From assembly GCA_930633525.1 (NCBI GenBank), contig CAKNFP010000001.1, positions 1,404,001 through 1,468,000 of the forward strand: a DNA stretch of 64,000 nucleotides. Reading direction: 5' to 3'. The notes under the pieces are model-generated. The model ran no database searches. It was not told the DNA's origin and saw nothing but the letters and a program-made list of their open reading frames with translations. Shown one piece after another: positions 4,855 to 32,423 of this stretch; position 1 is the stretch's first letter, and each line of letters opens with the position of its first letter. A program made the translations under genes and the position numbers. Origin of the DNA: Hyphomicrobiales bacterium. Lineage in GTDB: Bacteria > Pseudomonadota > Alphaproteobacteria > Rhizobiales > Beijerinckiaceae.

Positions 4855-5304
4855 ATGACCCCTGAACGCGATGGGTTCAGCCGCATCGATGCGGCTTATG
4901 CGATCGAGCCCGCCACTCTGTCCGCCGACAGCACCCCGGCGACTGTGGATATGAAAGGTGCCCGCCGCGCAACGCTACTCCTCGGCATCGGCGCGGGCGG
5001 CATCACCTTCACCGGCACCAACAAGATTGAATTCGTGCTCACGCACAGCGATGACAACGTCACCTACACGCCCGTCGTCGCCGACGACCTGATCGTTGAC
5101 GCCTTGGCGCCGGCGTCAATCACTGACGGCGTCGTCCGCGCGTTGATTGCGGCGCACGCGGCCGCGACCCTCCAGAAGGTCGGGTATATCGGCGGCAAGC
5201 GTTACCTCAAGCTGCTCGCCGACTTCAGTGGGACGCATGGGACCGGCACGCCGATTTCGGCCGTGGTCGTTCGGTCCGACCTCGACCTGCAGCGCGTTGC
5301 GTGA
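4855..5304 (+). CDS. Probable minor virion or head-decoration protein
   Basis: A 149-aa protein of unassigned family, mostly beta-strand in appearance (ATLLLGIGAGGITFTGTNKI, FVLTHSDDNVTY). No signal peptide or membrane segment. It lies between the capsid and head-tail connector genes, where HK97-like phages often encode capsid-associated or decoration proteins. A Shine-Dalgarno-like AAAGGA lies upstream of the ATG. Function is inferred from position only. Confidence 0.7.
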   Translation: MTPERDGFSRIDAAYAIEPATLSADSTPATVDMKGARRATLLLGIGAGGITFTGTNKIEFVLTHSDDNVTYTPVVADDLIVDALAPASITDGVVRALIAAHAAATLQKVGYIGGKRYLKLLADFSGTHGTGTPISAVVVRSDLDLQRVA

Positions 5305-5325
5305 CGGGCTGCGGGAGCATTTGAC

Positions 5326-5979
5326 ATGACCGTTGCCGTGATCACGCCGCCGGCCCCGATCATTTCGGCGGTCGAGGCGCGTAGCCAGCTATCGATTGGT
5401 CCGGAGATCGCGGACGACACGCTCGACGCGCTGATCGCCGCGGCGACGGAAGTGCTGGACGGTCCCGGCGGCTGGCTCGGCCGGGCCTTGGGCGAACAGA
5501 CCCTGGAGCAGCGCCATAGTGGCCTGTATTGGGTCTGCTCGCCCGTTTTCATGCTCTACTATCCGCCCCTCATCGAGGTGGTCAGCGTCAAATACCGCGA
5601 TCCCAACGGCATCGAGCAGACCATCGATCCCGCCGACTATAGGGTGATTGGCGGGGCAGGGGCCACGGGCATCGCGCGGCTCGCTCCGACCTATGGGAGC
5701 CCCTGGCCGCGGGCGCAGGCGAGCGAGGAATCCGTCAGGGTCACCTTCAGGGCCGGGTATCCCGTGGTCGATGGCAAGAGCACCGTGCCGGCGCCGATCC
5801 GTTATGCGGTGCAACTCGGCGTGCGCGAATTGCTCGATGTCGGGCGCGAATTATTCCTGAAGCGCGAGGATGTCGAAGGCGTCCTCAACCGTGAATGGGT
5901 CGTCTCCGAGGCTGCCGGCAAGGTAATTGGCGGTGCCGTCGAGAAGCTTCTCTCTCCCTATCGGATTTGGATGTCATGA
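5326..5979 (+). CDS. Head-tail connector protein (gp6-like)
   Basis: A 217-aa protein with the layout of HK97 gp6 / phiE125 gp8 connectors: an N-terminal helix pair (VEARSQLSIGPEIADDTLDALIAAATEVLD), a beta-rich middle (YYPPLIEVVSVKYRDPNG, YRVIGG) and a C-terminal helix (PAPIRYAVQLGVRELLDVGRELFL). It would form the ring beneath the portal. Its stop codon overlaps the next start in an ATGA arrangement, suggesting translational coupling. Confidence 0.85.
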   Translation: MTVAVITPPAPIISAVEARSQLSIGPEIADDTLDALIAAATEVLDGPGGWLGRALGEQTLEQRHSGLYWVCSPVFMLYYPPLIEVVSVKYRDPNGIEQTIDPADYRVIGGAGATGIARLAPTYGSPWPRAQASEESVRVTFRAGYPVVDGKSTVPAPIRYAVQLGVRELLDVGRELFLKREDVEGVLNREWVVSEAAGKVIGGAVEKLLSPYRIWMS

Positions 5980-6314
5980 GCCTCGCCGCCGCGACCATAG
6001 CCGCACTCGACCGGGCCATTGCCCGCGCCGGCACGCCCGTCACCTTCCGCCAGATCAATCCGCATCCCGCGGCGCCGACCGACACCGCATGCCGTGCGCA
6101 TGTGCGCGATGGCGACGCGGTCGTCGCCGGCAATGGCGTGTCCCAGGTCAAGGCCGTCGTCATTCTCTCGCCGACTGGCCTGCCGGGCCTGCCGAAAAAG
6201 CTCGATCAGATCGTCATCGACGGCAAGGTGCGGACGGTGGAACTGCCGCGCTTCAAGCGGATCGATGGGCAGGTCGTGCGCATCGAGCTCGATTGCACGG
6301 GTGCGGTCGGCTGA
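5976..6314 (+). CDS. Head closure / head-tail adaptor protein
   Basis: A 112-aa protein starting at ATG 5976, whose ATGA overlaps the connector stop; the frame is open upstream but that part overlaps the connector gene. The sequence is beta-rich in its second half (QVKAVVILSPTGL, QIVIDGKVRTVELP), as expected for a small head-closure protein of the HK97 gp7 / SPP1 gp16 type. Family assignment rests on size and gene order rather than a decisive motif. Confidence 0.72.
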   Translation: MSLAAATIAALDRAIARAGTPVTFRQINPHPAAPTDTACRAHVRDGDAVVAGNGVSQVKAVVILSPTGLPGLPKKLDQIVIDGKVRTVELPRFKRIDGQVVRIELDCTGAVG

Positions 6315-6913
6315 TGGCCCTCCGCGTCCGCACGAAGATCATCAACCGCGACATCGTCGCCTTCGTGAAACAGGGCATTTCGGCTGAAGCGGCGGCGTCC
6401 ATGCGCGCCGACATCGCGCGCGAGGCGCTCGCGGAGGCGCAAGAGCAGAACCGCAAGGCCCTCGGCCGCCTGCCGCCGCACGAAACCTACGTCGATGGCC
6501 GCAAGGGCGCCCCACTCGAGAGCGTCAAGCCAACCGGCACCGTGCTCTTTGAGTTCGATCTCTACAATGAGCTCTTTTCGTGGATCGGCGAGCAGCTCGT
6601 GCTGCATTCCCCGGTCCTGACGGGCCATTACCGCCAATCGCATCTGTTCTTCGCCGATGGCGCTGCGGTCGACCCTGGCGCCGCGTTGCCGGAGGCGGGT
6701 GAATATCTCTTCGTCAACGACAGGCCCTATGCCCGGATGATCGAGGGTGGATCGTCAGACCAGGCGCCGGACGGCGTCTATGAGGCGGTGGCGGCCCTTG
6801 CCAACCGGCGCTTCGGCAATGTGGCGCGCATCCGCTTCACCTATCGCACGGTTGTCGGCTCCAGGAAGGACGCCAGCACCCGCCAACCCGCCATCGTCAT
6901 CACCCTGAAATAG
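6314..6913 (+). CDS. Neck/tail completion protein (HK97 gp10-like)
   Basis: A 199-aa protein starting at ATG 6314, overlapping the previous stop by one base. It has a basic N-terminus, a hydrophobic-amphipathic segment (FEFDLYNELFSWIGEQL), and HSPVLTGHYRQSH followed by ARMIEGG, a pattern frequent in gp10-type tail proteins (SPVDTGxxRxS ... vExG). It sits between head closure and tail terminator, matching the standard siphophage order. Role in joining head and tail is inferred from family and position. Confidence 0.75.
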   Translation: MALRVRTKIINRDIVAFVKQGISAEAAASMRADIAREALAEAQEQNRKALGRLPPHETYVDGRKGAPLESVKPTGTVLFEFDLYNELFSWIGEQLVLHSPVLTGHYRQSHLFFADGAAVDPGAALPEAGEYLFVNDRPYARMIEGGSSDQAPDGVYEAVAALANRRFGNVARIRFTYRTVVGSRKDASTRQPAIVITLK

Positions 6914-6921
6914 GCCAGCCG

Positions 6922-7332
6922 ATGCCCAGCCAAGCAGTTGCCGAGGCCGTCGCGGCGCGGCTCGACGCCCTGTGGTCACAATGCCCCGTCTTCGGCATCA
7001 ACCAGGAGGCGACGGCTCCCGCCGACGCCTCGCCCTATCTCGCGGTGCAGTTTCCTGTCGCCAACCGCGACCAGATCACCATCGGCGCGCCAGGCAACAA
7101 CATCTTTCGCGAATGGGGGGCCTTTCGCTTCGTTCTCCACACAGAGCGCGGCGCCGGCCCCGCCAAGGCCCTGGCCTGGGCGGGCGAGCTGGCGCTGATG
7201 TTCCAGGCCAAGCAGTTCGGCGTCGTCACCACCTATGCGCCGTCACCGCCGACGCTCGATGAACGCAACTACGACGGCAATTACTGCGTCGTCTCCTTCG
7301 CCGTTCCCTACTTCGCCGACACGCGCGGCTAA
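6922..7332 (+). CDS. Tail terminator-like protein
   Basis: A 136-aa protein resembling phage tail terminators of the DUF4128 type, which cap the tail tube and set its end. Visible features are an N-terminal helix (AVAEAVAARLDALW), the strand YLAVQFPVANRDQITIG, and a central EWGAFRFVLHTERGAG segment followed by a helix and an alternating C-terminal strand. It is directly upstream of the tail tube gene, as expected. Confidence 0.75.
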   Translation: MPSQAVAEAVAARLDALWSQCPVFGINQEATAPADASPYLAVQFPVANRDQITIGAPGNNIFREWGAFRFVLHTERGAGPAKALAWAGELALMFQAKQFGVVTTYAPSPPTLDERNYDGNYCVVSFAVPYFADTRG

Positions 7333-7353
7333 GCGCTTTCCCCCTTTTCACCG

Positions 7354-7375
7354 GCGGGCGGGTTGCCCGCTTTTC
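7354..7375 (+). terminator. Possible intrinsic terminator before tail tube gene
   Basis: Stem GCGGGC / GCCCGC with a 5-base loop, followed by TTTTCT. It lies in the gap between the tail terminator and tail tube genes. In a single late operon it may act as a partial attenuator; strength cannot be judged from sequence. Confidence 0.5.
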
Positions 7376-7419
7376 TCGGGTCGCCTGCGGCTCCCGCACG
7401 ACCACGCATGGAGGCTCGT

Positions 7420-8895
7420 ATGGCCGAACTTCAGTCAACCAACCGCGTCAAGCTGTCCAAGGTCCGTGAGTCCATCGCCGGCACCACGCCGGCCAATCCC
7501 GCTTTCAAGGAGATCCTGCAGACGTCCAGCGGCCTCAATGCCGCGCCGCAGACCGTGACCTCGAATATCATCCGTTCCGATCGTCAGGTCGCCGATCTCA
7601 TACTCGTCGGCCTCCAGGTCGGCGGCGATGTCGGTGGTGAGCTCGCCTTCGGCGCGGCCGACGAGGATTTCGAGGAGGCCCTGCAAAACCTCTGGGTGAA
7701 CAAGCCGGCCATCGTCGTGGCAACGGCCGACACGGAAATCTCCGATGTCTCGGCGACCACGCTGACCGTCGCCTCCGGCGGTGCCAATTTCAAGGCCGGC
7801 CAGCTGGCGGCGCTCAGCGGCATGCCGACCGCGGGCAACAACAAGATCGCCCGGGTGTCGTCGTCAACCACAACCTCCATCGTGTTCCCCTCCGCGTCCT
7901 TCGCAGCGGAATCGGCCCCGATCCCGGTTGGTGCCGAGGTGCGCGTTGTCGGCCTCGAGGGCGCGGCGACGGATCTCGCGGCCGTCACCGCTGGCGGCAA
8001 CGGCCTCACCTCCGCCGCGCTCGATTTCACGACGCTCGGCTTCAATGTCGGCGAATGGGTCAAGATCGGCGGCGCGGCTGTCGGCGCGCAGTTCGCGACG
8101 GCCACGAATAACGGCTGGGCGCGGATTGCGGCGATCGCCGCCGGCAAGCTCAGCTTTGACGAAGTCCCGGCCGGCTGGGCGGCGGACACCGGCACCGGCA
8201 AGACCATTCAGCTGTTCGCCGGCGACTTCCTGAAGAACGGCACAACCAAGCTGCCCTCCACCTTCGAGCGCCAGTATCTCGACCATTCCCCGGTGTCCTA
8301 CGAGTATTTCCGGGGCCTGGAGCTCAACACCCTGAGCATCAGCGCGCCGGCGCAGCAGATCGCGACCTACGCCAAGTCCTATATCGGGCGTTCGGCGGAG
8401 ATCCTGTCTGCCCGGCTCTCCGGCGCGACCGATGTCACGCCCGATGTCGGCGACGTGCTCAACACCTCGTCGAATGTCGGGCGCATCAGCGTCGGTGGCC
8501 AGGAGGTCGCCGGCCCCAACTTCGTCATGTCGGCGACCATCGAGATCAACAACAACCTGCGCGCCCAGAACGCTGTCGGCTATCTCGGCGCCGTTGGCAT
8601 CGGCAATGGCGAGTTCACCGTCACCGGTACGCAGGAATTCTATTTCGGCGACAAATCCGTCTACGAAAAGGTACTGGCGAATGCGCCGTCGAATTTTACC
8701 ATGGTGCTCGGCCGCCAGGACGGCGCCCGGCAGTCCATCCTCGTCGATCTGCCGCGCCTCAAATATGCGACGGGCGCCCCCGCCGTCAGCGGCAAGAATG
8801 ACGACGTGATGCTGTCGGCCAACTTCCAGGCCATTCGCCACCCGACGCTTGGCTACACCATGGCGGTCCAGCGTTTCCACTATCTGCCGGCATAA
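7420..8895 (+). CDS. Major tail tube protein
   Basis: A 491-aa protein starting at ATG 7420, preceded by GGAGG with normal spacing; an in-frame ATG 12 bases upstream contains the Shine-Dalgarno itself and is rejected. The N-terminus (KVRESIAGTTPANPAFKEIL) is typical of long tail tube proteins of alphaproteobacterial siphophages. The middle ~200 residues (SDVSATTLTVASGGANFKAG onward) are Ala/Gly/Thr-rich beta structure and look like an inserted domain. The C-terminal half returns to the tube fold. Placement before the tail chaperone supports the call. Confidence 0.85.
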   Translation: MAELQSTNRVKLSKVRESIAGTTPANPAFKEILQTSSGLNAAPQTVTSNIIRSDRQVADLILVGLQVGGDVGGELAFGAADEDFEEALQNLWVNKPAIVVATADTEISDVSATTLTVASGGANFKAGQLAALSGMPTAGNNKIARVSSSTTTSIVFPSASFAAESAPIPVGAEVRVVGLEGAATDLAAVTAGGNGLTSAALDFTTLGFNVGEWVKIGGAAVGAQFATATNNGWARIAAIAAGKLSFDEVPAGWAADTGTGKTIQLFAGDFLKNGTTKLPSTFERQYLDHSPVSYEYFRGLELNTLSISAPAQQIATYAKSYIGRSAEILSARLSGATDVTPDVGDVLNTSSNVGRISVGGQEVAGPNFVMSATIEINNNLRAQNAVGYLGAVGIGNGEFTVTGTQEFYFGDKSVYEKVLANAPSNFTMVLGRQDGARQSILVDLPRLKYATGAPAVSGKNDDVMLSANFQAIRHPTLGYTMAVQRFHYLPA

Positions 8896-9001
8896 CCCGG
8901 CTCCACCAACGTCGTGAGATCCTGGACGGATCCCTCGCGACCGGCGGGAGGCGGGTCACAGCGCCTTCCGCCACCCTTTCTGTGACAAGGAGACTTTTCT
9001 T

Positions 9002-9466
9002 ATGGATCTGAAATCAGCGAAGGTTGACGGCGCCCTTATCGAGGCCGGCGAGTGGGTGAAGGACATCCCCGAGATGGACAACCTCGAGCTCAAGGTGCGT
9101 GGCCTCGGCTGCGTGGAGTTCAAGCGTTATTTAGCCAAGCGCTACCGGCTCGTGCCGAAGGGCGCCCGTCACCGTGACGGCTCCATTGATCCGAATTTGC
9201 AGGACGTCATCGCCACCGATGCTCTGGTGGAAACCGTCCTGCTCGACTGGCGCAACGTGGAAGAAGGCGGTGTGCCGGTGCCTTACAGCAAGGATGTGGC
9301 GCGCCAATATCTCACCAATCCGGATTACCGGCCCTTGCGGGATGCGGTCTCCTGGGCGGCCAACGTCGTTGCCTCCGGCGGCGCGCTGTCCGATGAGGAT
9401 GTGTTGGGAAACTCCGCGCCTATGTCGAATGGCAGCACGGCTGGAGCCGCCATCACGACGCTCTAG
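9002..9466 (+). CDS. Tail assembly chaperone, short form (gpG-like)
   Basis: A 154-aa acidic protein with AAGGAG upstream of its ATG. It lies between tail tube and tape measure, the position of the lambda G chaperone. The sequence includes KVRGLGCVEFKRYLAKRYR and DVARQYLTNPDYRPLRDAV, common in siphophage chaperones. Near its end, positions 9406-9412 form a -1 slippery heptamer in the reading frame, so this is the unshifted product. The last ~17 residues are low-complexity, as expected for the short form. Confidence 0.85.
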   Translation: MDLKSAKVDGALIEAGEWVKDIPEMDNLELKVRGLGCVEFKRYLAKRYRLVPKGARHRDGSIDPNLQDVIATDALVETVLLDWRNVEEGGVPVPYSKDVARQYLTNPDYRPLRDAVSWAANVVASGGALSDEDVLGNSAPMSNGSTAGAAITTL

Positions 9467-9744
9467 TCGCCAATTTCGAGCGAATCGGGCAACCGGTGCC
9501 AGACCATCTGCTGGCGCCGGATCTCGATCCCGTCGAGGCCGAGATCGTCGACGCCTTCAACGATCTCACCTCCGACCGGCCCGTGGGTTTCGGCGTCGGG
9601 CCCATCCCCTTCACGGCCATCGACCGCTACGCCGCGCGCTACGGCTTCGATGCGCCCGACGAGTTCGATTTCCTGCGGCGTGCCCTGCGCGCCATGGATG
9701 CGAAGTTTCTGGAGCTGACGGCGAAACCGCGCGGAAAGACTTGA
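9002..9744 (+). CDS. Tail assembly chaperone, frameshift product (gpGT-like)
   Basis: Predicted -1 frameshift extension of the chaperone. Ribosomes slipping at G GGA AAC (9406-9412) move from the codons GGA AAC to GGG AAA and enter a frame open from 9397 to the TGA at 9742-9744. The fused product would be about 247 aa. The downstream frame reads as a good protein (VEWQHGWSRHHDALVANFER, then EAEIVDAFNDLTSDRP) well before its only start candidate, a GTG at 9496, which argues for fusion rather than separate initiation. This is the lambda G/GT arrangement; slippage itself is inferred. Confidence 0.85.
9406..9412 (+). promoter_or_regulatory. -1 programmed frameshift slippery site GGGAAAC
   Basis: Heptamer of the X XXY YYZ form, phased as G GGA AAC in the chaperone frame. 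Lambda uses the closely similar GGGAAAG between G and T. The -1 frame downstream is open to 9744 and protein-like. Confidence 0.85.
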
Positions 9745-9788
9745 TCCCGCGCGGATCGCATCGCTAGCATGCCCAAAACTTGGGGGTG

Positions 9789-10100
9789 ATGATGCGTTGG
9801 GCAGTTCTGGTCGCGCCGTTGGCGCTGGTGGGGTGTATTTCGGCGAAGCCGGGGGCGGAGTCTGTACAGTTGTTGGCCAATGCTGAGCTTGTCAAAGGCT
9901 GCGCCTTTATCGAACAAGACAGTATTGGTATTGACGCATTGGAGAGCGGGGGGATCGACAATCTCCGCAAGGATCTTATTACAAAAATGAAGAACAAGGC
10001 GGTCTCTGTTGGCGGAACTCATGTTCTCACATCGGGGCCTACAGTGTCTCTACCGGGACCGGTAACAAACATAACCGGCGACATATACCGCTGCGGCTAG
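9789..10100 (+). CDS. DUF4156-like phage lipoprotein (moron)
   Basis: A small exported lipoprotein: MMRWAVLVAPLALVGC is a signal peptide ending in a lipobox (LVGC), so the mature protein would be lipidated at the Cys. The mature part ends in GGTHVLTS ... GDIYRC with paired cysteines, resembling DUF4156 lipoproteins. It is inserted between tail chaperone and tape measure, with lower GC than its neighbours and its own terminator at 10123. A weak promoter-like pair, TTGATC (9741) and TAGCAT (9765) spaced 18, precedes it. The start could be ATG 9789 or 9792. A role in the lysogen envelope or superinfection exclusion is conjecture. Confidence 0.72.
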   Translation: MMRWAVLVAPLALVGCISAKPGAESVQLLANAELVKGCAFIEQDSIGIDALESGGIDNLRKDLITKMKNKAVSVGGTHVLTSGPTVSLPGPVTNITGDIYRCG

Positions 10101-22019: not shown

Positions 22020-22975
22020 GGATGACAATGGGGGTTCTGGCCGGCGCGGCCTCAGAAGCGCCTTATCTTGCCATCCCGTCCGTCTACTGGACAGATGGTG
22101 ACGCCGGTGCGGACCAGGGATGCTACTACTCAACAAACGGTACGAGCTATGCAGCAATCACGCCAACGCTTCCCAGTAATGGCATAGGCGACAATGCAAC
22201 GGATGGATCCGGTCTATGGGTCGCATGCCCGCCTTCGAACGCGTCTGCGAACGAGATCTATGTATCGGACAACCCATTAGTCGGATGGGATACGTACTCG
22301 CTGTCGTTCCAGCCAACCGGCGTTTGCTATGACGGAAGCAACTTTGTCATCTGCGGAGCGGGCGGGAATATCGCATATACCAGCAACCCGCGCGGATCGT
22401 GGACATCATGGTCATCAGGCGTCGCAACATTTTTGAGTGCAATAGGATTTGGTGGCGGAAATTATGCTGTAGTTGGAGACAATGGGTACCTCAGGGTTTC
22501 TACCAGCAGGGGCGGGACGCTGACCAACCGATTTTCTGGGACATCAGTCGGGGTGGCCTGCGTCAAGTATGATCCCGTGGGTAATCTGTGGGTTGCTGGC
22601 GGCAGCGGCGGAAACCTCTGGTACCAAAGTGGTGGGGCTGCCGCAGGAACGAATTGGAATCGCACTTCATCTGGAAGCAGTCAGATCAACTTCATCGACA
22701 TGACGGGCTCCATGGCTGTGTATGTCGCGAGTGGCGGCTTCATGGGGTATACGGCAACACCATCAAGCCCAGGGTCTTGGACGACTTCAAGCCCGTTTGG
22801 TGGGTCGGCAAATATGTGGTGCGTGAAATACTCACCTCTTCTGGGGCTATGGATCGCGTTGGGCGTGAACGTATTGCGCACGGCAACCACTCCATCTGGA
22901 TCGTGGACCAGTCGCATGCCGGGCGGCACATCGGGCGCTCAGAATGCCCGCAAAGGCCTAATCGTCACTGGCTAG
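22016..22975 (+). CDS. Putative receptor-binding tail protein, propeller-like
   Basis: A 319-aa protein starting at ATG 22016 in an ATGA overlap with the fibre stop. It is built from repeated Gly/Trp-rich strands of about 40-50 aa (NPRGSWTSWSSGVATFLS, GNLWVAGGSGGNLWY, SSPGSWTTSSPFGG), like beta-propeller blades. Its GC content and codon use are visibly lower than in the fibre gene, as is common for swapped receptor-binding tips. It is followed at once by a terminator. The receptor-binding role is inferred from position, repeats and composition. Confidence 0.72.
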   Translation: MRMTMGVLAGAASEAPYLAIPSVYWTDGDAGADQGCYYSTNGTSYAAITPTLPSNGIGDNATDGSGLWVACPPSNASANEIYVSDNPLVGWDTYSLSFQPTGVCYDGSNFVICGAGGNIAYTSNPRGSWTSWSSGVATFLSAIGFGGGNYAVVGDNGYLRVSTSRGGTLTNRFSGTSVGVACVKYDPVGNLWVAGGSGGNLWYQSGGAAAGTNWNRTSSGSSQINFIDMTGSMAVYVASGGFMGYTATPSSPGSWTTSSPFGGSANMWCVKYSPLLGLWIALGVNVLRTATTPSGSWTSRMPGGTSGAQNARKGLIVTG

Positions 22976-22997
22976 CCGCCCTCCGAGGCGGCTTTTT
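22974..22997 (+). terminator. Rho-independent terminator of the tail operon
   Basis: Stem GCCGCC / GGCGGC with a 6-base loop followed by TTTTT, overlapping the stop codon of the propeller-like gene. It separates the tail genes from the lysis genes. Confidence 0.85.
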
Positions 22998-23156
22998 CAA
23001 TTCAGGTGCAAGCCCGCCCCCCGACTGCTGGCTTGCGCCGGGGGAAGTGAGCAGCCAGGGGCGGTGCCTCATCGCCGGGGGTGCGGGTCTGAGGTTGGCC
23101 ATCGGAACACGGCTTAGACCGCGCCACAAGCGGGTCTGATCTTCGGAGACATCCAA

Positions 23157-23282
23157 ATGAAACATCTGCTGATCGTGGCGCTTGTCGCCGCGGCCGTGAG
23201 CGCTTGCGCGTCTCGCGACAAGACCGATTGGGCTGGTGTCGCCAACGGCGCCCGCTGCGTCGTGGAGGGTTGCCGGCAATGA
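23157..23282 (+). CDS. Small phage lipoprotein of lysis cassette
   Basis: A 41-aa product: MKHLLIVALVAAAVSAC is a signal peptide with a lipobox-like end (VSAC), followed by a short Cys-containing tail (GARCVVEGCRQ). CGGAG upstream gives a plausible Shine-Dalgarno. The stop overlaps the endolysin start as ATGA, so it is coupled to lysis. It may be an outer-membrane-anchored lysis accessory protein; no family is recognised. Confidence 0.6.
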   Translation: MKHLLIVALVAAAVSACASRDKTDWAGVANGARCVVEGCRQ

Positions 23283-24136
23283 CCATCAACCGCTCCACCT
23301 TCTTCGCTTATGCGCGCCGCTCGCCGTTCGGCGACAGGCTCACGCAACAGCAGGTCGATGGCATGACCGACATCCTCGACGAGTGGGATGCCAACTACAG
23401 CCGCCTGCCGCTGACCTATCTCGCCTGCTACCTCGGCCAGGCGTTCCGCGAGACCGGCGGCACGATGGCCCCGGTGCGTGAGACTTTCGCGACCAGCGAT
23501 AAGCAGGCCATGGCGCGGCTCGAGACGGCGTGGACCTCCGGCAAGCTGCCCAGCGTGAAAACCCCGTACTGGCGCAAGGGCTGGTTTGGCCGCGGGCGCA
23601 TCCAGGTGACTCACGCCGAGAACTATGCCTATGCCCAAACCAAGTCTGGCCTTCCGATCTTTGGCGACCGGTCGCTGATGCTCGACAGCAAGGCTGAACT
23701 CAAGGTCTCGCTGCCCGGTACCATCGAGGGGTGGTGGACGCGCGGCAAGCACCGCATGTCGATGTATCTCGATCGCCCCAACCCGGATTTCGAGGGCGCC
23801 CGGCGCATCGTCAACGGCACGGACAAGGCGAAGTTGGTGGCGACCTACTGCGAGGCTTTCCTCGCCGCCCTCAAGGCCGCCGAGATCGGCAAGGCGCAGC
23901 CTGCCGACGCGCTGCCGGCGCTCGCCGTGCCCGATGACATCAAGCCGGTTGAGAGCAAATCGCTCTGGTCGGCGCTGCTGACCTTCGCCACGGGCGGCGG
24001 CGGTCTCGCCTTCCTCGGCGCCATCGACAACCCGATGTCGCTCGCAGCCTTCGCCCTTGTGCTGGCGGCGGGTGGCATCGGCCTTTGGCTGGTGTTGACC
24101 GGGCGCGTCACCTTCAACCGGCGGCCGGCGGCATGA
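23279..24136 (+). CDS. Endolysin, GH19-like, with C-terminal membrane segments
   Basis: A 285-aa peptidoglycan hydrolase, starting at ATG 23279 in an ATGA overlap; the frame is open upstream but overlaps the lipoprotein gene. The catalytic part shows QAFRETGGTM with Glu58 as the candidate acid and FGRGRIQVTHAENY, the GH19/lysozyme-like substrate-cleft motif. Residues 1-190 suffice for this domain. The C-terminus carries two hydrophobic segments (ALLTFATGGGGLAFLGAI and AAFALVLAAGGIGLWLVL) ending in a basic tail, so the enzyme is probably membrane-tethered or has a holin-like part. No Sec signal at the N-terminus. Confidence 0.85.
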   Translation: MTINRSTFFAYARRSPFGDRLTQQQVDGMTDILDEWDANYSRLPLTYLACYLGQAFRETGGTMAPVRETFATSDKQAMARLETAWTSGKLPSVKTPYWRKGWFGRGRIQVTHAENYAYAQTKSGLPIFGDRSLMLDSKAELKVSLPGTIEGWWTRGKHRMSMYLDRPNPDFEGARRIVNGTDKAKLVATYCEAFLAALKAAEIGKAQPADALPALAVPDDIKPVESKSLWSALLTFATGGGGLAFLGAIDNPMSLAAFALVLAAGGIGLWLVLTGRVTFNRRPAA

Positions 24137-24399
24137 TCGCCGCCGCTCTCGGTGAGGTGTTGGCCTTCGTCAGGCGCTACCCGCGCCTCATCGCCACGCT
24201 GCTTGCGGCGCTCGCCCTCATCGTCGTGGCCGCTCTCATCTACCGCCAGATCTACAGCAGCGGCTACGAGGCCGCGCAATCGGCCATCGCCAAACAGGAC
24301 AAGGGGGCCGTCGATGCGGCTGACAAAGCTTCTGCCCGTCGTCGGGCTTGCATTGATTCTGGCCGGGTGTGGAGCGTCGCGACCGGCCAGTGTCGCTGA
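24133..24399 (+). CDS. Rz-like inner-membrane spanin subunit
   Basis: An 88-aa protein from ATG 24133 (ATGA overlap with the endolysin stop). One N-terminal transmembrane helix (LIATLLAALALIVVAALIY) is followed by a short helical, charged periplasmic part with Cys near the end. Another gene encoding a lipoprotein starts inside it at 24314 in a different frame, the hallmark of Rz/Rz1 spanin pairs that fuse the two membranes at lysis. The periplasmic part is shorter than in lambda Rz. Confidence 0.75.
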   Translation: MIAAALGEVLAFVRRYPRLIATLLAALALIVVAALIYRQIYSSGYEAAQSAIAKQDKGAVDAADKASARRRACIDSGRVWSVATGQCR

Positions 24400-24538
24400 T
24401 GGGGAATGCCGGGTGTTTCGGGCTCCTGGTGTGGTGATCGACGGCCGTACGGCGGCTGATCAGGACTGGATTGACGACACCATCGAGCGCGGCGTTGCGG
24501 GCTGTGGCTGGGCTCGCCCGCGATCGAGGAGGCTATGA
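24314..24538 (+). CDS. Rz1-like spanin lipoprotein, nested start
   Basis: A 74-aa lipoprotein whose ATG lies inside the Rz-like gene in another frame, preceded by AAGGGGG. Signal sequence MRLTKLLPVVGLALILAGC ends in a lipobox (LAGC); the mature part contains DGRTAADQDWIDDTIERGVA and three more Cys. The overlap by 86 bases and lipoprotein nature fit an outer-membrane spanin. Its stop overlaps the start of the next membrane protein. Confidence 0.78.
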   Translation: MRLTKLLPVVGLALILAGCGASRPASVADGECRVFRAPGVVIDGRTAADQDWIDDTIERGVAGCGWARPRSRRL

Positions 24539-24786
24539 TGGATGAACAGAAACCACCGACCGAGCGCATGGCTGATTTGCCTGACGAGACCCGAGCCTTC
24601 TTGGCTCAGTTGCAGCCGGGCGATATTGAGCTGCTGAGAGAGGGCCTCGGGCTACTACGCTCGATCTTGACCGTTGGCCGGTTCATGCGATGGCTCGTTA
24701 TAACCCTTGCTGGCCTTGTTATCGGCAGCGTCATGTTGTGGGAGAACATCCAGAAGGCTGGCGCATGGCTCAAATCGATGCGATGA
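24535..24786 (+). CDS. Small membrane protein, holin-like
   Basis: An 83-aa protein with GAGGAGG upstream of the double ATG (24535, 24538). The N-terminal ~50 residues are polar and acidic, the C-terminal part has one clear transmembrane helix (WLVITLAGLVIGSVMLW) and a short basic tail. Being last in the lysis cassette and having one TM helix, it could be a holin or lysis regulator; topology alone does not decide. DNA becomes AT-rich right after it. Confidence 0.68.
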   Translation: MMDEQKPPTERMADLPDETRAFLAQLQPGDIELLREGLGLLRSILTVGRFMRWLVITLAGLVIGSVMLWENIQKAGAWLKSMR

Positions 24787-24809
24787 AATTAACCAAGCAA
24801 GTAAGAATG

Positions 24810-25379
24810 TTACCAACATCGAGGTATGTCTCGCATCCCGAAGTCTATAATTTTCTCGATATTACCGTCGCAGTCCAGGGTAACGGACGCGTCAATTATG
24901 TGGCCAATTCCTGCTTTTTGGAATGCCTCTATCAAATAATTTTTATTGGGAGCGTTCACAACTCCAATTTTATGAAGAGTTCCTTTAACGAAAGCCCCCT
25001 CAAACGCAGCGCCCTCGATGAATTCGGCCGTAATATCCAAACCCTCCCGGTCAAAAACTATATTTCTTTCGACCAGATTAACTGGTGCGATCACGAATTT
25101 ACTCAACGCGCTGTTGGTCGAGGCGATTTCTAAGGCTTTCCATTCAGATCGGAATGTGTCGCTGCAATGGCCGTCATCATTGCCTTCATCGCGTCGATAA
25201 AGCTTCCGGATGCGCTTGGTCAAATTATCCACGAATATAGTACCATAAGCACCTTCACCGAGATATATGAAATTGGTTCCTTCTATTTTAGATCCTTTAT
25301 GGTTATGCATTCCTGCCCCCTTTCCCGCCTTATCCAAGACAGCGGCATCACCAAGTTCTGAGTAAGTTACATAATACAC
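24810..25379 (-). CDS. Small kinase-like protein, AT-rich accessory gene
   Basis: A 189-aa product if the GTG at 25379 is used; ATG at 25310 with AAAGGGGG six bases upstream is an alternative giving 166 aa. It has kinase-like landmarks in the right order: a Gly-rich loop LGEGAYGTIFV (residues 40-50), a Lys-bearing strand KRIRKLYR, a helix with Glu (FRSEWKALEIA), HIID as a possible catalytic-loop remnant at 160-163, and IIDFGMRD (DFG) at 177-184. The C-lobe is almost absent, so it is far shorter than normal protein kinases. Strand and low GC mark it as cargo. Activity is unproven. Confidence 0.62.
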   Translation of the reverse strand: MYYVTYSELGDAAVLDKAGKGAGMHNHKGSKIEGTNFIYLGEGAYGTIFVDNLTKRIRKLYRRDEGNDDGHCSDTFRSEWKALEIASTNSALSKFVIAPVNLVERNIVFDREGLDITAEFIEGAAFEGAFVKGTLHKIGVVNAPNKNYLIEAFQKAGIGHIIDASVTLDCDGNIEKIIDFGMRDIPRCW

Positions 25380-25432
25380 TTTTTTAGATCGAATGCGGTC
25401 TCTCGCATCTTTTATCGCAAAAACTGAATCAC

Positions 25433-25915
25433 CTATTTACCGGTCAACATCTCAAAAACCGTTCTTTGTTTCATGTATGGAGCTGCAAGTTTTGCGAAAT
25501 CACTCTGCAGTGCACGAAACCGTTTTTCTGAGCCAATCCGCGCTTCATAAGCTTGCTTATAATCCTCGGCCATAGATTGTCCAGCCAACATAGCAAAGCG
25601 CCCATCCAAGTGATTGTTAGTCAGGGTAGCCAGCTCTCTCTCAATCTGCGCTGCCTTTTCGGACACCGTTGAAGAGAACAGGCAATCGAGTTGCATGCGA
25701 GCGTTCCATATGCGCCGTAACTCATCTATTTTGGGGACACTCGGAGGGTCCATCATCAATATTTCCTGCAAGCGCGCATCACATGAAATATTGAATTCGC
25801 GATATGCATTAAATCTTTTCTCAAAAAGATCAATATATAGCTTCCTATCTTGTATAAGCGCAGTAATTACAGCGATGATCGCGCCAATTATGCCTAATAA
25901 AACGGTAGACACCAT
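25433..25915 (-). CDS. Single-pass membrane protein, accessory gene
   Basis: A 160-aa protein starting at ATG 25915 with GGAGGA seven bases upstream. Residues 3-20 are a transmembrane helix (STVLLGIIGAIIAVITAL); the rest is cytosolic-looking, charged and helical, including coiled-coil-like ERELATLTNN and YEARIGSEKRFRALQ. No family recognised. It is the first gene of a minus-strand AT-rich pair with the kinase-like gene 53 bases downstream, against the direction of the lysis genes. The pair looks like lysogenic-conversion cargo; an immunity or defence role is only a hypothesis. Confidence 0.65.
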   Translation of the reverse strand: MVSTVLLGIIGAIIAVITALIQDRKLYIDLFEKRFNAYREFNISCDARLQEILMMDPPSVPKIDELRRIWNARMQLDCLFSSTVSEKAAQIERELATLTNNHLDGRFAMLAGQSMAEDYKQAYEARIGSEKRFRALQSDFAKLAAPYMKQRTVFEMLTGK

Positions 25916-26159
25916 TTATATGTCCTCCATCGCAGCTGGCGCCAGGTGCAAGCTTCGAATGTGCGTTGAGCCAAAGGAAATGCGCGGAACAAGGATTCGT
26001 AATCATGTATTTCCCCATGCAGCCGCGTCAATATCTCTTATCTTCCCCGTGTGTCTTCTGTCAGATCTCATCACATGCTACGTCGGACCCTGCACCTCTC
26101 GCTGAACAGGGCTGCCAATGAAGAAAAATGGCCACACTCGGAATCTGCTTGACTCTTTT

Positions 26160-26174
26160 GTTCTTATTTTGTTC
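26160..26174 (+). promoter_or_regulatory. LexA-type box GTTC-N7-GTTC
   Basis: Perfect match to the alphaproteobacterial LexA half-sites GTTC and GTTC separated by seven bases, 30 bases upstream of the gene at 26204. A second perfect copy lies at 27453. Binding is inferred from the motif. Confidence 0.75.
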
Positions 26175-26203
26175 CATGGCGGCGGGGCTATGGAGATTGA
26201 GCC

Positions 26204-26650
26204 ATGATGCTCACACTTAGCGTTGACGTGCCTGGCGCCACTGATGAAGAACTCATGCGAGGCCTGCATGCTGCGGCTGCGGTGTTTCGTGAGCAAAAGG
26301 TGTCGCCGCTGGCCGCGCTGGACGGTTTCTTTGCGCTCGAAGGATGGACGGATACCTGCGGCCTTATCCCTTATAGCGAGGAAAACGACCGGGCCATTGA
26401 CGTCTGGCACGAAGCGGACAAGGCAGCAGTCGATGCGATATGCGCGAACTGGCCATTCGATCGTGAACGTCCAGAGTCGTCTGGATTGGATGTCGTGAAG
26501 CCCGAAGGTGGCTGGCCCGACCAACCACCGGAGGGTGAGGATGACCCTGACGACGATGGGCAAAGCCATTATGACTACGAGAGCCACCGCCGCTTCAAGG
26601 AGCAGTACGACGAGGCCGTCAAAGAGACGGAAGCGCCTCGTCGTTCTTGA
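26204..26650 (+). CDS. Acidic protein of unknown function, LexA-box controlled
   Basis: A 148-aa soluble protein starting at ATG 26204 (second ATG at 26207), with GGAGA upstream. The N-terminal half is globular (VDVPGATDEELMRGLHAAAA, WTDTCGLIPYSEENDRA); the C-terminal third is strongly acidic and disordered (GEDDPDDDGQSHYDYE). The acidic tail could mimic nucleic acid, which is speculative. A LexA box lies just upstream, so DNA-damage induction is likely. Its 3' end overlaps the SRAP gene on the other strand by 32 bases. Confidence 0.65.
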   Translation: MMLTLSVDVPGATDEELMRGLHAAAAVFREQKVSPLAALDGFFALEGWTDTCGLIPYSEENDRAIDVWHEADKAAVDAICANWPFDRERPESSGLDVVKPEGGWPDQPPEGEDDPDDDGQSHYDYESHRRFKEQYDEAVKETEAPRRS

Positions 26651-27347
26651 CGCCTCGCGCCACGATCTGGAGCGAGCCATCCGGCAACGGACGCTGTAGG
26701 TCTTTGGCCTCGCTCCACGGTGCCCGCATCCAGATATCCCGCTCGTCTTCTGTGGTGAGGATGACGGGCATGGCCTTTGGATGGATCGCGCCCACTTCCG
26801 CGTTCGGATCCGTGGTCAGGAAGGCATAGAGGTCGGCGACCTCCATTCCGGTCTTGACCTTGCGCACGCTTGGCCAACGCTCGGTCCAGATCCCGGCGAA
26901 GAAGGCCAGGGGGCGCTCCTCGTTGAAGGCGAACCAGATATCGCCGCCGGCCGCCTTGTTGAACTCGCTGAAGGAGGTGAACGGCACGAGGCAACGGTTG
27001 TCCGGCCCAAGCCAGCGCTGCCAGTGCTTGCTGTCGGTGTTGCGGACGTTGGTCGTGCCACCGTCCGGCTCCATCTTCAGCAGCTCCTTGAAGTCGACCG
27101 TCTGGCCCTTGGCTTCGAGCTTCTCGGCGCGCTTCTTCGCGGCCTGCATCAGCGCGAACTGGGATGACGGCATTCCCCATCGCGCCAGGGCCAGCGCCCG
27201 CCCGTTCGGCCCGTTGCGCACGATCGGCGCGGAATAGTCTGGGAAGACGCCGGGCATGCGTTGCAGGTTGCCCGTGTAATCCTCGAAGGCCCGCGTCAGC
27301 TCGCGGATGGCCTGTTGGCCCTTGGTCATGGAATAGAGGTTGCACAC
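26619..27347 (-). CDS. SOS response-associated peptidase (SRAP/YedK-HMCES-like)
   Basis: A 242-aa protein of the SRAP family, which protects abasic sites in single-stranded DNA by forming a thiazolidine crosslink through Cys2. The GTG at 27347 is chosen as start: it is directly followed by TGC (Cys2, MCNLYS) and lies six bases after AAGGGAG. The ATG at 27353 would add two residues before Cys and abuts the Shine-Dalgarno. The later active-site positions are visible: Asn in TNVRN, Glu in PFTSFSEF, His in IHPKAMPVIL. A LexA box lies upstream at 27453. Carried by the prophage, near its right end. Confidence 0.88.
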   Translation of the reverse strand: MCNLYSMTKGQQAIRELTRAFEDYTGNLQRMPGVFPDYSAPIVRNGPNGRALALARWGMPSSQFALMQAAKKRAEKLEAKGQTVDFKELLKMEPDGGTTNVRNTDSKHWQRWLGPDNRCLVPFTSFSEFNKAAGGDIWFAFNEERPLAFFAGIWTERWPSVRKVKTGMEVADLYAFLTTDPNAEVGAIHPKAMPVILTTEDERDIWMRAPWSEAKDLQRPLPDGSLQIVARGVKNDEALPSL

Positions 27348-28254: not shown

Positions 28255-29298
28255 TCACGGTTCGCCCTTCACCATCTTCGCCATGGCGCTGGCTACCAGA
28301 ACCTTTTGACGGGCCGCACGGGTGTAGCGAGCCACTTCTTTCGACGTCCGGTGGCCGGTGATCGCCTTGATCTCCTCCTCTGTACAACCGAGCTCGGCTA
28401 GCCGTGACGCCGACGCTTTCCGGAGCCCGTGCGCCGAGCACTGCGGCAGGCCCGCCTCGTCACACCGATCGCGAAACCAGTTGCCGAATCCGTTCGCCGT
28501 GAAGCCCCTGTTGAACTCTGTCACAAGGAATGTCAGATCGCCGACCGGCGAGGCATCAATGATAGACTGCAGGGGCGCGACGATCGGGATCTCGAGCCGC
28601 ACAGGCGCCCTTACGCGGTTCTTCACCTGCGTGAAGACCAGCCAGCCGTCCTGGACGTGCTGCTTGCCAAAGAGCACGACATCAGACCGTCGTTGCGCGG
28701 TATAGAGAAGCAACGCCAACGCAAGCCGGGCCTTGGTGCCTACGGGATGTCTTTTCTCGAAGGCCTCGACCTCTTCCAGTGACCAAGAGTGGAAGCCCTC
28801 GGACCCTGTCTTGATGTAGGGCACGTCCTTCGCCGGATTTCAATCGCAGCAGTCGTTGTTCACGCCGAAGGCAAAGACCTGCCGCAGATATTTCACCAAC
28901 GAATTAGCGGCCTCGGGGCGATCAGCCTTCTCGTCACGCAGCCGCCGCACATGGCGCGGCTCCATCATCTTATAGGGCTTGTCTCCATGTTTCTTAGAGA
29001 AGGCGTCGAGCACCAGCCGCCGCACCCGCTTGGTGCGATCGTCCAGCCTTTTGAACTCTGCGCTGCCGTAATAACCCACAACCAGCCATCGCATCGTGTT
29101 CTGCTGCGGGCGGGAATCCTGCTGTTGCGCCTTCTTGGGCGCTTCCCCCGTCATTGCCTTCCGGTATGCCTCCCAGAAAGCGGACGAACCAACTGGCGTC
29201 GGCAGACGCACCTTTAACTGCCCCGCCCTACGGAAATAGATCCGCACGTTCCCGTGCCGGTCCATGTCCTCGACGACGTATTTGATCGACGCCTTCAC
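28255..29298 (-). pseudogene. Tyrosine-recombinase integrase with in-frame TGA
   Basis: One continuous frame encodes an integrase of about 347 codons but is interrupted by TGA at 28840-28842. Upstream: GTG 29298 start (GTGA overlap with the excisionase-like gene), N-terminal and core-binding part. Downstream: full catalytic domain with Arg in TAQRRSDV, HGLRK, GHRTSKE and the Tyr of RYTRAA. The codon lies in NDCCD-stop-NPAKD; CGA (Arg) to TGA is the simplest change. An internal GTG at 28824 could allow a catalytic fragment. Probably inactive unless read through; sequencing error is also possible. Confidence 0.85.
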
Positions 29299-31562: not shown

Positions 31563-32423
31563 TTAGGCTAATCCCACCTTTTTTTCGAACTCGACCGGGC
31601 TGATGTAGCCGATCGTCGAGTGCCTGCGAACGGCGTTGTAGAACCGCTCGATGTAATCGAACACGTCGGCACGAGCATCGTCGCGTGCCCGGTAAACCCT
31701 GCCTCCGATCCGCTCGGTTTTGAGCGAGGAGAAGAAGCTCTCCATCGCGGCGTTGTCCCAGACATTGCCAGAGCGGCTCATTGAGCAGGTGACGCCGTTG
31801 TCGGTCATGAGCTTCTGGAACGGCTCGCTGGCATACTGGCTGCCCTGGTCAGAATGGTGCAGCAGGGCATCCGGTTTTCCCCGGCGCCAGATCGCCATCA
31901 TCAGCGCATCGGTCACGAGCCCGGCGGTCATCTCGGCCTTCATCGACCAACCCACCACACGCCGGGAGAAGAGGTCGATGACGGCTGCAACGTAAAGCCA
32001 ACCTTCTGCGGTCCAGATGTAGGTAAAGTCGGCGATCCAGCGTTGGTTGGGCCGTTCGGCGTGGAACTCCCGGTCGAGCGTATTCGGGGCGATGGCCGAT
32101 CGCCGGCCCTCATCCTTGGGCAGGTTGCGCCGACGCGGTCTGGCACGCAAAGCCTGGGCGCGCATCAGCCGCTCGATGCGATGCAGGCCGCAATCGATCC
32201 CTTCCGCCAGCACGTCCCGCCAGACGCGCCTGGCACCATAGGTCCGATCCGAACGAAGGAAGCTTGTCCGGACCCTGTTGCCGATCTCCTCGTCGTCGCG
32301 TGCTCGACGGCTCGGTGACCGGTTGAGCCAGGCATGGAAGCCCGAGCGCGACACATCCAGCGCTTCGCAAAGCCACGCCACCGGCCAGATCCCCCGGTGC
32401 TTCGCAATGAACGTGAACCTCAT
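31563..32423 (-). CDS. IS3-family transposase OrfB (DDE catalytic part)
   Basis: A 286-aa catalytic protein. HTH_21-like N-terminal part (GFHAWLNRSPSRRARDDEEI), then the rve integrase core with DDE residues in WIADFTYI, HHSDQGSQYAS and AAMESFFSSLK; it ends in the usual YNAVRRHSTIGYISPVEFE. It is normally made as an OrfAB fusion by -1 frameshift at AAAAAAG upstream of its ATG, and the -1 frame is open into it. Confidence 0.93.
   Translation of the reverse strand: MRFTFIAKHRGIWPVAWLCEALDVSRSGFHAWLNRSPSRRARDDEEIGNRVRTSFLRSDRTYGARRVWRDVLAEGIDCGLHRIERLMRAQALRARPRRRNLPKDEGRRSAIAPNTLDREFHAERPNQRWIADFTYIWTAEGWLYVAAVIDLFSRRVVGWSMKAEMTAGLVTDALMMAIWRRGKPDALLHHSDQGSQYASEPFQKLMTDNGVTCSMSRSGNVWDNAAMESFFSSLKTERIGGRVYRARDDARADVFDYIERFYNAVRRHSTIGYISPVEFEKKVGLA

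Follow-up and report, generated by a model that had tools for sequence, protein, structure and literature searches.

A predicted kinase-fold protein lacking most of the C-lobe in a variable cargo slot of a Hyphomicrobiales prophage

Introduction

The minimal effector kinases OspG, NleH, and HopBF1, for which structures have been solved, have compact kinase folds and are injected into host cells; the full lengths of OspG and HopBF1 are near 200 amino acids (aa). Prophage 933W carries Stk, a full-size eukaryote-like kinase. It is reported to exclude phage HK97 (PMC3681748). Hot spots in P2, P4, and other prophages and satellites are described as variable loci of antiviral systems, among which kinases occur too (PMC9122126). 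The present analysis concerns 64,000 nucleotides from a Hyphomicrobiales bacterium (contig CAKNFP010000001.1 of assembly GCA_930633525.1, positions 1,404,001 to 1,468,000), referred to as the window, in which a prophage carries an AT-rich cassette (24787..26146) with genes for a protein of predicted kinase fold (24810..25310, minus strand) and for a small membrane protein (25433..25915, minus strand).

An earlier note on this DNA had proposed a linked pair of a membrane protein and a minimal kinase-like protein, with a possible role in exclusion, defence, or host rewiring. The window protein is compact like OspG, NleH, and HopBF1; nothing here suggests that it is injected, although no search for secretion-system delivery was made. 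As in 933W, a gene of kinase type lies in a prophage, a likeness in proposed role only. As in the P2/P4-type hot spots, a small variable locus lies between conserved phage genes and holds defence genes in some members; here, however, the phage is of another type and the locus is in another place, from the lysis genes to the SRAP/integrase end.

Prediction of a kinase fold in a short protein

Both minus-strand open reading frames (ORFs) of the earlier note are real, one at 25433-25915 (160 aa) and one at 24810-25379 (189 aa from a GTG at 25379). Within the latter, an internal ATG (25310-25308), preceded by a purine-rich stretch, gives 166 aa. This is probably the true length, because relatives P0001, P0005, and P0006 start at the position of this ATG and because residues 1-23 of the 189-aa form are the sole stretch of its AlphaFold model with a predicted local distance difference test score (pLDDT) <50. 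The description '189 aa or less' therefore holds for the ORF, with the shorter form the likelier protein.

AlphaFold models of the window protein and of a relative from Vibrio (29% identical) are both confident and predict a protein-kinase fold, and the strand and helix order of the kinase N-lobe is seen in each. Kinases or kinase-like enzymes fill all 50 VIA-align rows for the window model and, by title, 49 out of 50 for its Vibrio counterpart, the exception being 6zxg_z, titled as a ribosomal subunit. At the sequence-profile level, hhalign matched the family to a bacterial kinase profile built from nine loci (E 1.7e-4, probability 50%), and none of 100 shuffles scored as well. This was the second of two kinase profiles, the first coming from four of the 11 loci (E 1.4e-4, probability 53%) and the second from nine of the 11; L060 and L061 were dropped for want of the motif, and L062 was kept although under the Pfam cut-off. 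An aminoglycoside-phosphotransferase-like profile of two loci was not matched (probability 0.4%).

The comparison with kinase folds proposed in the earlier note thus gave kinases or kinase-like enzymes in all but one of the VIA-align rows, and its minimal kinase-like protein is borne out as to fold by the models, the VIA-align and Foldseek matches, and the profile comparison. Based on these predictions, the 166-aa protein very likely has a kinase fold. The statement that known phage kinases are larger holds in part, as predicted phage proteins with lengths of 180, 191, and 206 aa give weak structural matches of a kinase-like kind.

Foldseek places OspG first for the window model (E 2.5e-4), and the VIA-align Z scores for the window and Vibrio models are 8.7 and 9.1 with OspG and 7.8 and 8.7 with HopBF1. 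The likeness is in fold alone, since the OspG/NleH and HopBF1 chains in the PDB gave no sequence match at E <= 10 by phmmer or profile. The aligned ranges end at residue 162 of OspG and 174-175 of HopBF1, where those chains continue, whereas the window family ends 10-19 residues past the DFG Asp. PRPK/Bud32 is first in the VIA-align list for the Vibrio model and tied first for the window model, and RIO2 is first in Foldseek for the Vibrio model; the PRPK and RIO scores are tied with those of Hanks-type kinases. PRPK/Bud32 and the RIO kinases, including the small RNA kinases Ark1/ArkI, keep more of the C-lobe than the window family and retain the catalytic Asp and Asn.

Conserved core and absence of the lower C-lobe

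Ten family members were aligned, the window protein and nine relatives, ranging from Rhizobiales to Vibrio. The Gly-rich loop reads GAY in all nine rows that cover the site (P0002 is shorter), and K59, E79 in alpha-C, D163, and D179, the DFG Asp, are invariant in all ten members. The residue after the DFG Asp is F in eight members and I in two, and the DFG Gly site holds G in five, A in four, and S in one. The order of Gly-rich loop, Lys, alpha-C Glu, and DFG reported previously is therefore present in the window protein and conserved in its relatives.

All ten members end 10-19 residues past the DFG Asp. None of them, therefore, has the activation segment or helices F to I of a canonical (Hanks-type) protein kinase, in agreement with the observation that most of the C-lobe is lacking. 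The 166-aa protein keeps the N-lobe, together with a single helix of the C-lobe, a shortened catalytic loop, and the strand that bears DFG. The invariant D163 sits three residues past the register of the HRD Asp; in both models it follows the C-lobe helix by eight residues and precedes the next strand by two. In kinase numbering, its place is near that of the HRD Asp when counted from the helix side and near that of the Asn when counted from the strand side. The catalytic loop thus looks contracted, and D163 may serve as base or metal ligand. The chances that the protein is catalytically active are nearly balanced.

A rare and undescribed family

The family is rare, unnamed, and undescribed. 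Neither cassette gene has a match up to E 10 in Pfam, PHROGs, or PADLOC. Across the ten family members, Pfam gave only four unrelated weak matches, one member each (best E 0.021), and none to Pkinase. Searches of PDB sequences returned one kinase chain (E 1.8) for the single protein, no kinase chain for a three-row profile, and an IF-2 fragment (E 0.35) and the kinase AAK1 (E 1.0) for the ten-row profile. No relative was found among phage and plasmid records with tblastn and five kinase-family queries; a match to a Pseudomonas phage (two records, E 1) was taken as chance. Likewise, the viral contigs scanned held no relative of the kinase family or of the membrane protein, and the genome contigs scanned held one kinase-family locus (L002). 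In samples of related genomes the gene was present in 1 out of 60, 1 out of 385, and 1 out of 398, always as the window's own copy. A literature search, of incomplete coverage, found no paper joining 'prophage' and 'minimal kinase'. Genome-wide, the window's own genome has no match to Pfam Pkinase (PF00069) at E 0.001.

The AT-rich cassette and its slot in sibling prophages

The cassette stands out in composition, as had been noted previously. The guanine and cytosine (GC) content of 24790-26146 is 0.452, against a window mean of 0.627 and 0.551 for the lowest non-overlapping stretch of equal length (100-base steps across the window), so that about 24787-26146 is the lowest-GC region of the window (45% GC). 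Third-position GC is 0.45 in each cassette gene, compared with 0.62-0.87 in eight other measured genes.

On the left, the cassette is bordered by a holin-like gene of 83 aa (24535..24786, plus strand) with homologues in the loci L036 (71%) and L019 (59%), the label being given by eye from a single hydrophobic stretch and the location after the lysin. The cassette genes are convergent with this gene and overlap no lysis gene; the earlier wording 'antisense to the lysis operon' was correct as to strand but not as to any overlap. The right border (26147..26650, plus strand) includes a 148-aa gene (26204-26650, plus strand), which is kept in three sibling prophages (69-84% identity) and has no Pfam match. 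It is followed by an SRAP-family gene (26619..27347, minus strand), which was used as the right anchor for locating sibling slots.

Sibling prophages of the same genus support both edges. The locus L019, from another genome, is 90% identical over window positions 22975-24745 and then diverges; at the other side, DNA homology to L036, L037, and L040 starts at 26140-26147. L036 (G000:C1:2295000-2310000) is a second prophage of the window's own genome. Over 6.6 kb of tail genes it is 97.8% identical to the window's prophage, and its slot is empty: about 100 bp separate the holin-like homologue (8885-9130) from the conserved junction (9235), with no kinase or membrane-protein gene. The lysis module of L036 differs from that of the window prophage.

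A fetched locus was counted as a slot if it had the SRAP anchor and, towards the lysis genes, a phage match. This gives seven slots, one of them empty, whose content is of four or more kinds. The region from the lysis genes to the SRAP/integrase end is a variable cargo hot spot. In L020 (genome G001), the slot holds a 601-aa AriAB/OLD-like ATPase (5463-7268, minus strand, 45% GC), with a best PADLOC match to AriAB, AAA_21-like (E 2.7e-26). In L037 (genome G003), it holds a 1265-aa SIR2 protein (5071-8868, minus strand) matching Dsr1 (E 6.5e-72). Recognised defence-type genes are therefore found in two of the six filled slots. In L039 (5831-8163), L040 (5958-7837), and L023 (6397-8288; cargo judged by eye), a trypsin-like gene is followed by a gene of 417-422 aa, and this module may form a further cargo system. 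Some left anchors are weak, with 35% lysin similarity in L039 and L023 and short DNA matches in L037 and L040. L019 is outside the count because it has the left anchor only. For lack of the 148-aa gene and of anchors on the lysis side, L038 was dropped, as were 13 further SRAP stretches in 12 genomes from the family; two lysin relatives that have no SRAP anchor, L021 and L022, were left out.

Beyond the SRAP gene lies the integrase gene (28255..29298, minus strand), which has an in-frame stop at 28840-28842; the prophage may not excise by itself, or the base call may be wrong. A DNA search for the tRNA-Arg region near the integrase found no second genomic copy and hence no left attachment site. 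Promoter and terminator scans gave chance-level results only. Just beyond the integrase end, an ORF at 31563-32423 (minus strand) resembles an IS3-type transposase by eye.

The membrane-protein gene and the question of pairing

The 160-aa protein has one N-terminal hydrophobic stretch (best 19-residue mean hydropathy 2.59) and a helical-looking soluble remainder, as had been described, and it carries a conserved stretch, RKLxxDLFxKRF. Two Methylobacterium plasmids carry relatives (33% and 27% identical); one plasmid has an annotated tape-measure gene, and on the other a ThsA-like SIR2 gene lies about 1.7 kb from the relative. A weak third relative (E 4.8e-4) lies in another genome, in a region with recombinase-like ORFs by eye. 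In the related-genome sample the gene was found in 2 out of 297, one being the window's own.

The linked pair proposed in the earlier note was not supported beyond adjacency. A search for co-occurrence found both genes in none of the four other readable loci, the outcome that the note itself had named as contrary to its proposal, although the sample is small. L002 has a kinase relative but no membrane-protein relative, and L004, L005, and L073 have membrane-protein relatives but no kinase relative. In L002 the kinase match begins 55 bp past a nuclease-domain ORF; this ORF and the large helicase ORF that precedes it jointly match PDC-S37/Hhe. These ORFs (5031-9945), a DUF4011 helicase and an MTES_1575 nuclease in different frames, look like one interrupted gene.

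The cassette may thus hold two unrelated cargo genes that share one slot, the membrane protein having its own function, which is only a little short of an even bet. This would fit the lack of co-occurrence and the 122-bp gap between the membrane-protein gene and the ATG of the kinase-fold gene, although the two genes have a common strand, low GC, and the same third-position GC, in a single cassette bounded by two borders. The chance that kinase and membrane protein form a true two-gene system is about one in two.

Role of the cassette

It is proposed, at even chances, that the cassette is accessory cargo of a temperate phage that protects the lysogen from other phages. The accessory-cargo part of this reading is supported by the sharply bounded cassette and the empty site in the same genome (L036). 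A defence role is suggested because an AriAB/AAA_21-like ATPase and a Dsr1-like SIR2 protein share the slot in two siblings, and because the L002 kinase relative adjoins the PDC-S37/Hhe match and a membrane-protein relative is near a ThsA-like SIR2 gene. Of the exclusion or defence role in the earlier note, what stands is the argument from position and company, that is the variable slot and the defence-type genes in two of its six filled examples. By analogy, the precedents of 933W Stk and of prophage hot spots favour the same reading.

Under this proposal, the cassette would guard the lysogen through exclusion or abortive infection. The 166-aa protein would bind ATP-Mg through Lys59, Glu79, and Asp179 and, upon infection, would modify a target of the host or of a phage, Asp163 acting as base or metal ligand. 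The missing substrate-binding half would be provided by a partner or by the target, and the membrane protein may be an anchor for the kinase-fold protein or a separate effector. A broader form, in which temperate phages and other mobile elements use a new family of kinases against phages, is unlikely; these kinases would be cut below any matched here, with a contracted catalytic loop and without an activation segment, and would have the site completed by the target or a partner or act on RNA in place of protein.

A number of findings weigh against the defence proposal. Structural similarity to kinases is moderate (TM 0.33-0.53), and with the Vibrio model no Foldseek match reached E <= 0.001. 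The HRD Asp register of the nine-locus profile alignment (residue 160) is occupied by His in six members, Tyr in three, and Asp in one, and the catalytic Asn register (residue 165) by Ser in nine and Cys in one; in the HIID motif reported previously, the Asp is therefore invariant but displaced relative to HRD, and the His varies. PADLOC recognises neither cassette gene, AriAB is one of 143 models matching the generic ATPase of L020, and the trypsin-like genes of L039 and L040, which were scanned, have protease-domain PADLOC matches only. As one of the seven slots is empty and three hold the protease module, the slot is not defence-only. The two genes were found together in none of the four other loci that could be read.

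The occupancy of these two registers, together with the absence of the activation segment in all ten members and the presence of the MLKL pseudokinase among the structural matches of the Vibrio model, could indicate a pseudokinase, which would bind nucleotide or protein without phosphate transfer and act as sensor or scaffold, for example by gating the membrane protein. This is a credible alternative of somewhat lower probability, and it may still be defence. However, Lys59, Glu79, the catalytic-loop Asp, and the DFG Asp are invariant in 10 out of 10, which would be unusual had catalysis been lost.

It is less probable, at roughly one chance in four, that the cassette serves host fitness or rewiring (lysogenic conversion) with no anti-phage role, or is a toxin-antitoxin-like addiction pair that keeps the prophage. 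The small two-gene arrangement in a cargo slot would suit this, and the protease modules in three sibling slots show that non-defence cargo is possible; nevertheless, recognised defence-type genes are present in the slot and near relatives, and no toxin or antitoxin family was matched in the Pfam, PHROGs, and PADLOC scans. It is improbable that the minimal domain is an RNA kinase with tRNA or another RNA as its substrate in place of protein, an activity that would account for the absence of a protein-substrate groove. Decay of a larger kinase in a defective prophage, to which the small size, the absence of most of the C-lobe, and the stop codon in the integrase gene might point, is highly improbable, because nine relatives, one from Vibrio, stop at the same point and have the same core residues, and the two models are confident, so that the short form is the family's normal form.

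An active kinase-fold protein would demonstrate how small a part of the kinase fold is enough for catalysis, and an inactive one would be a compact pseudokinase. More anti-phage genes may be sought in the slot itself.
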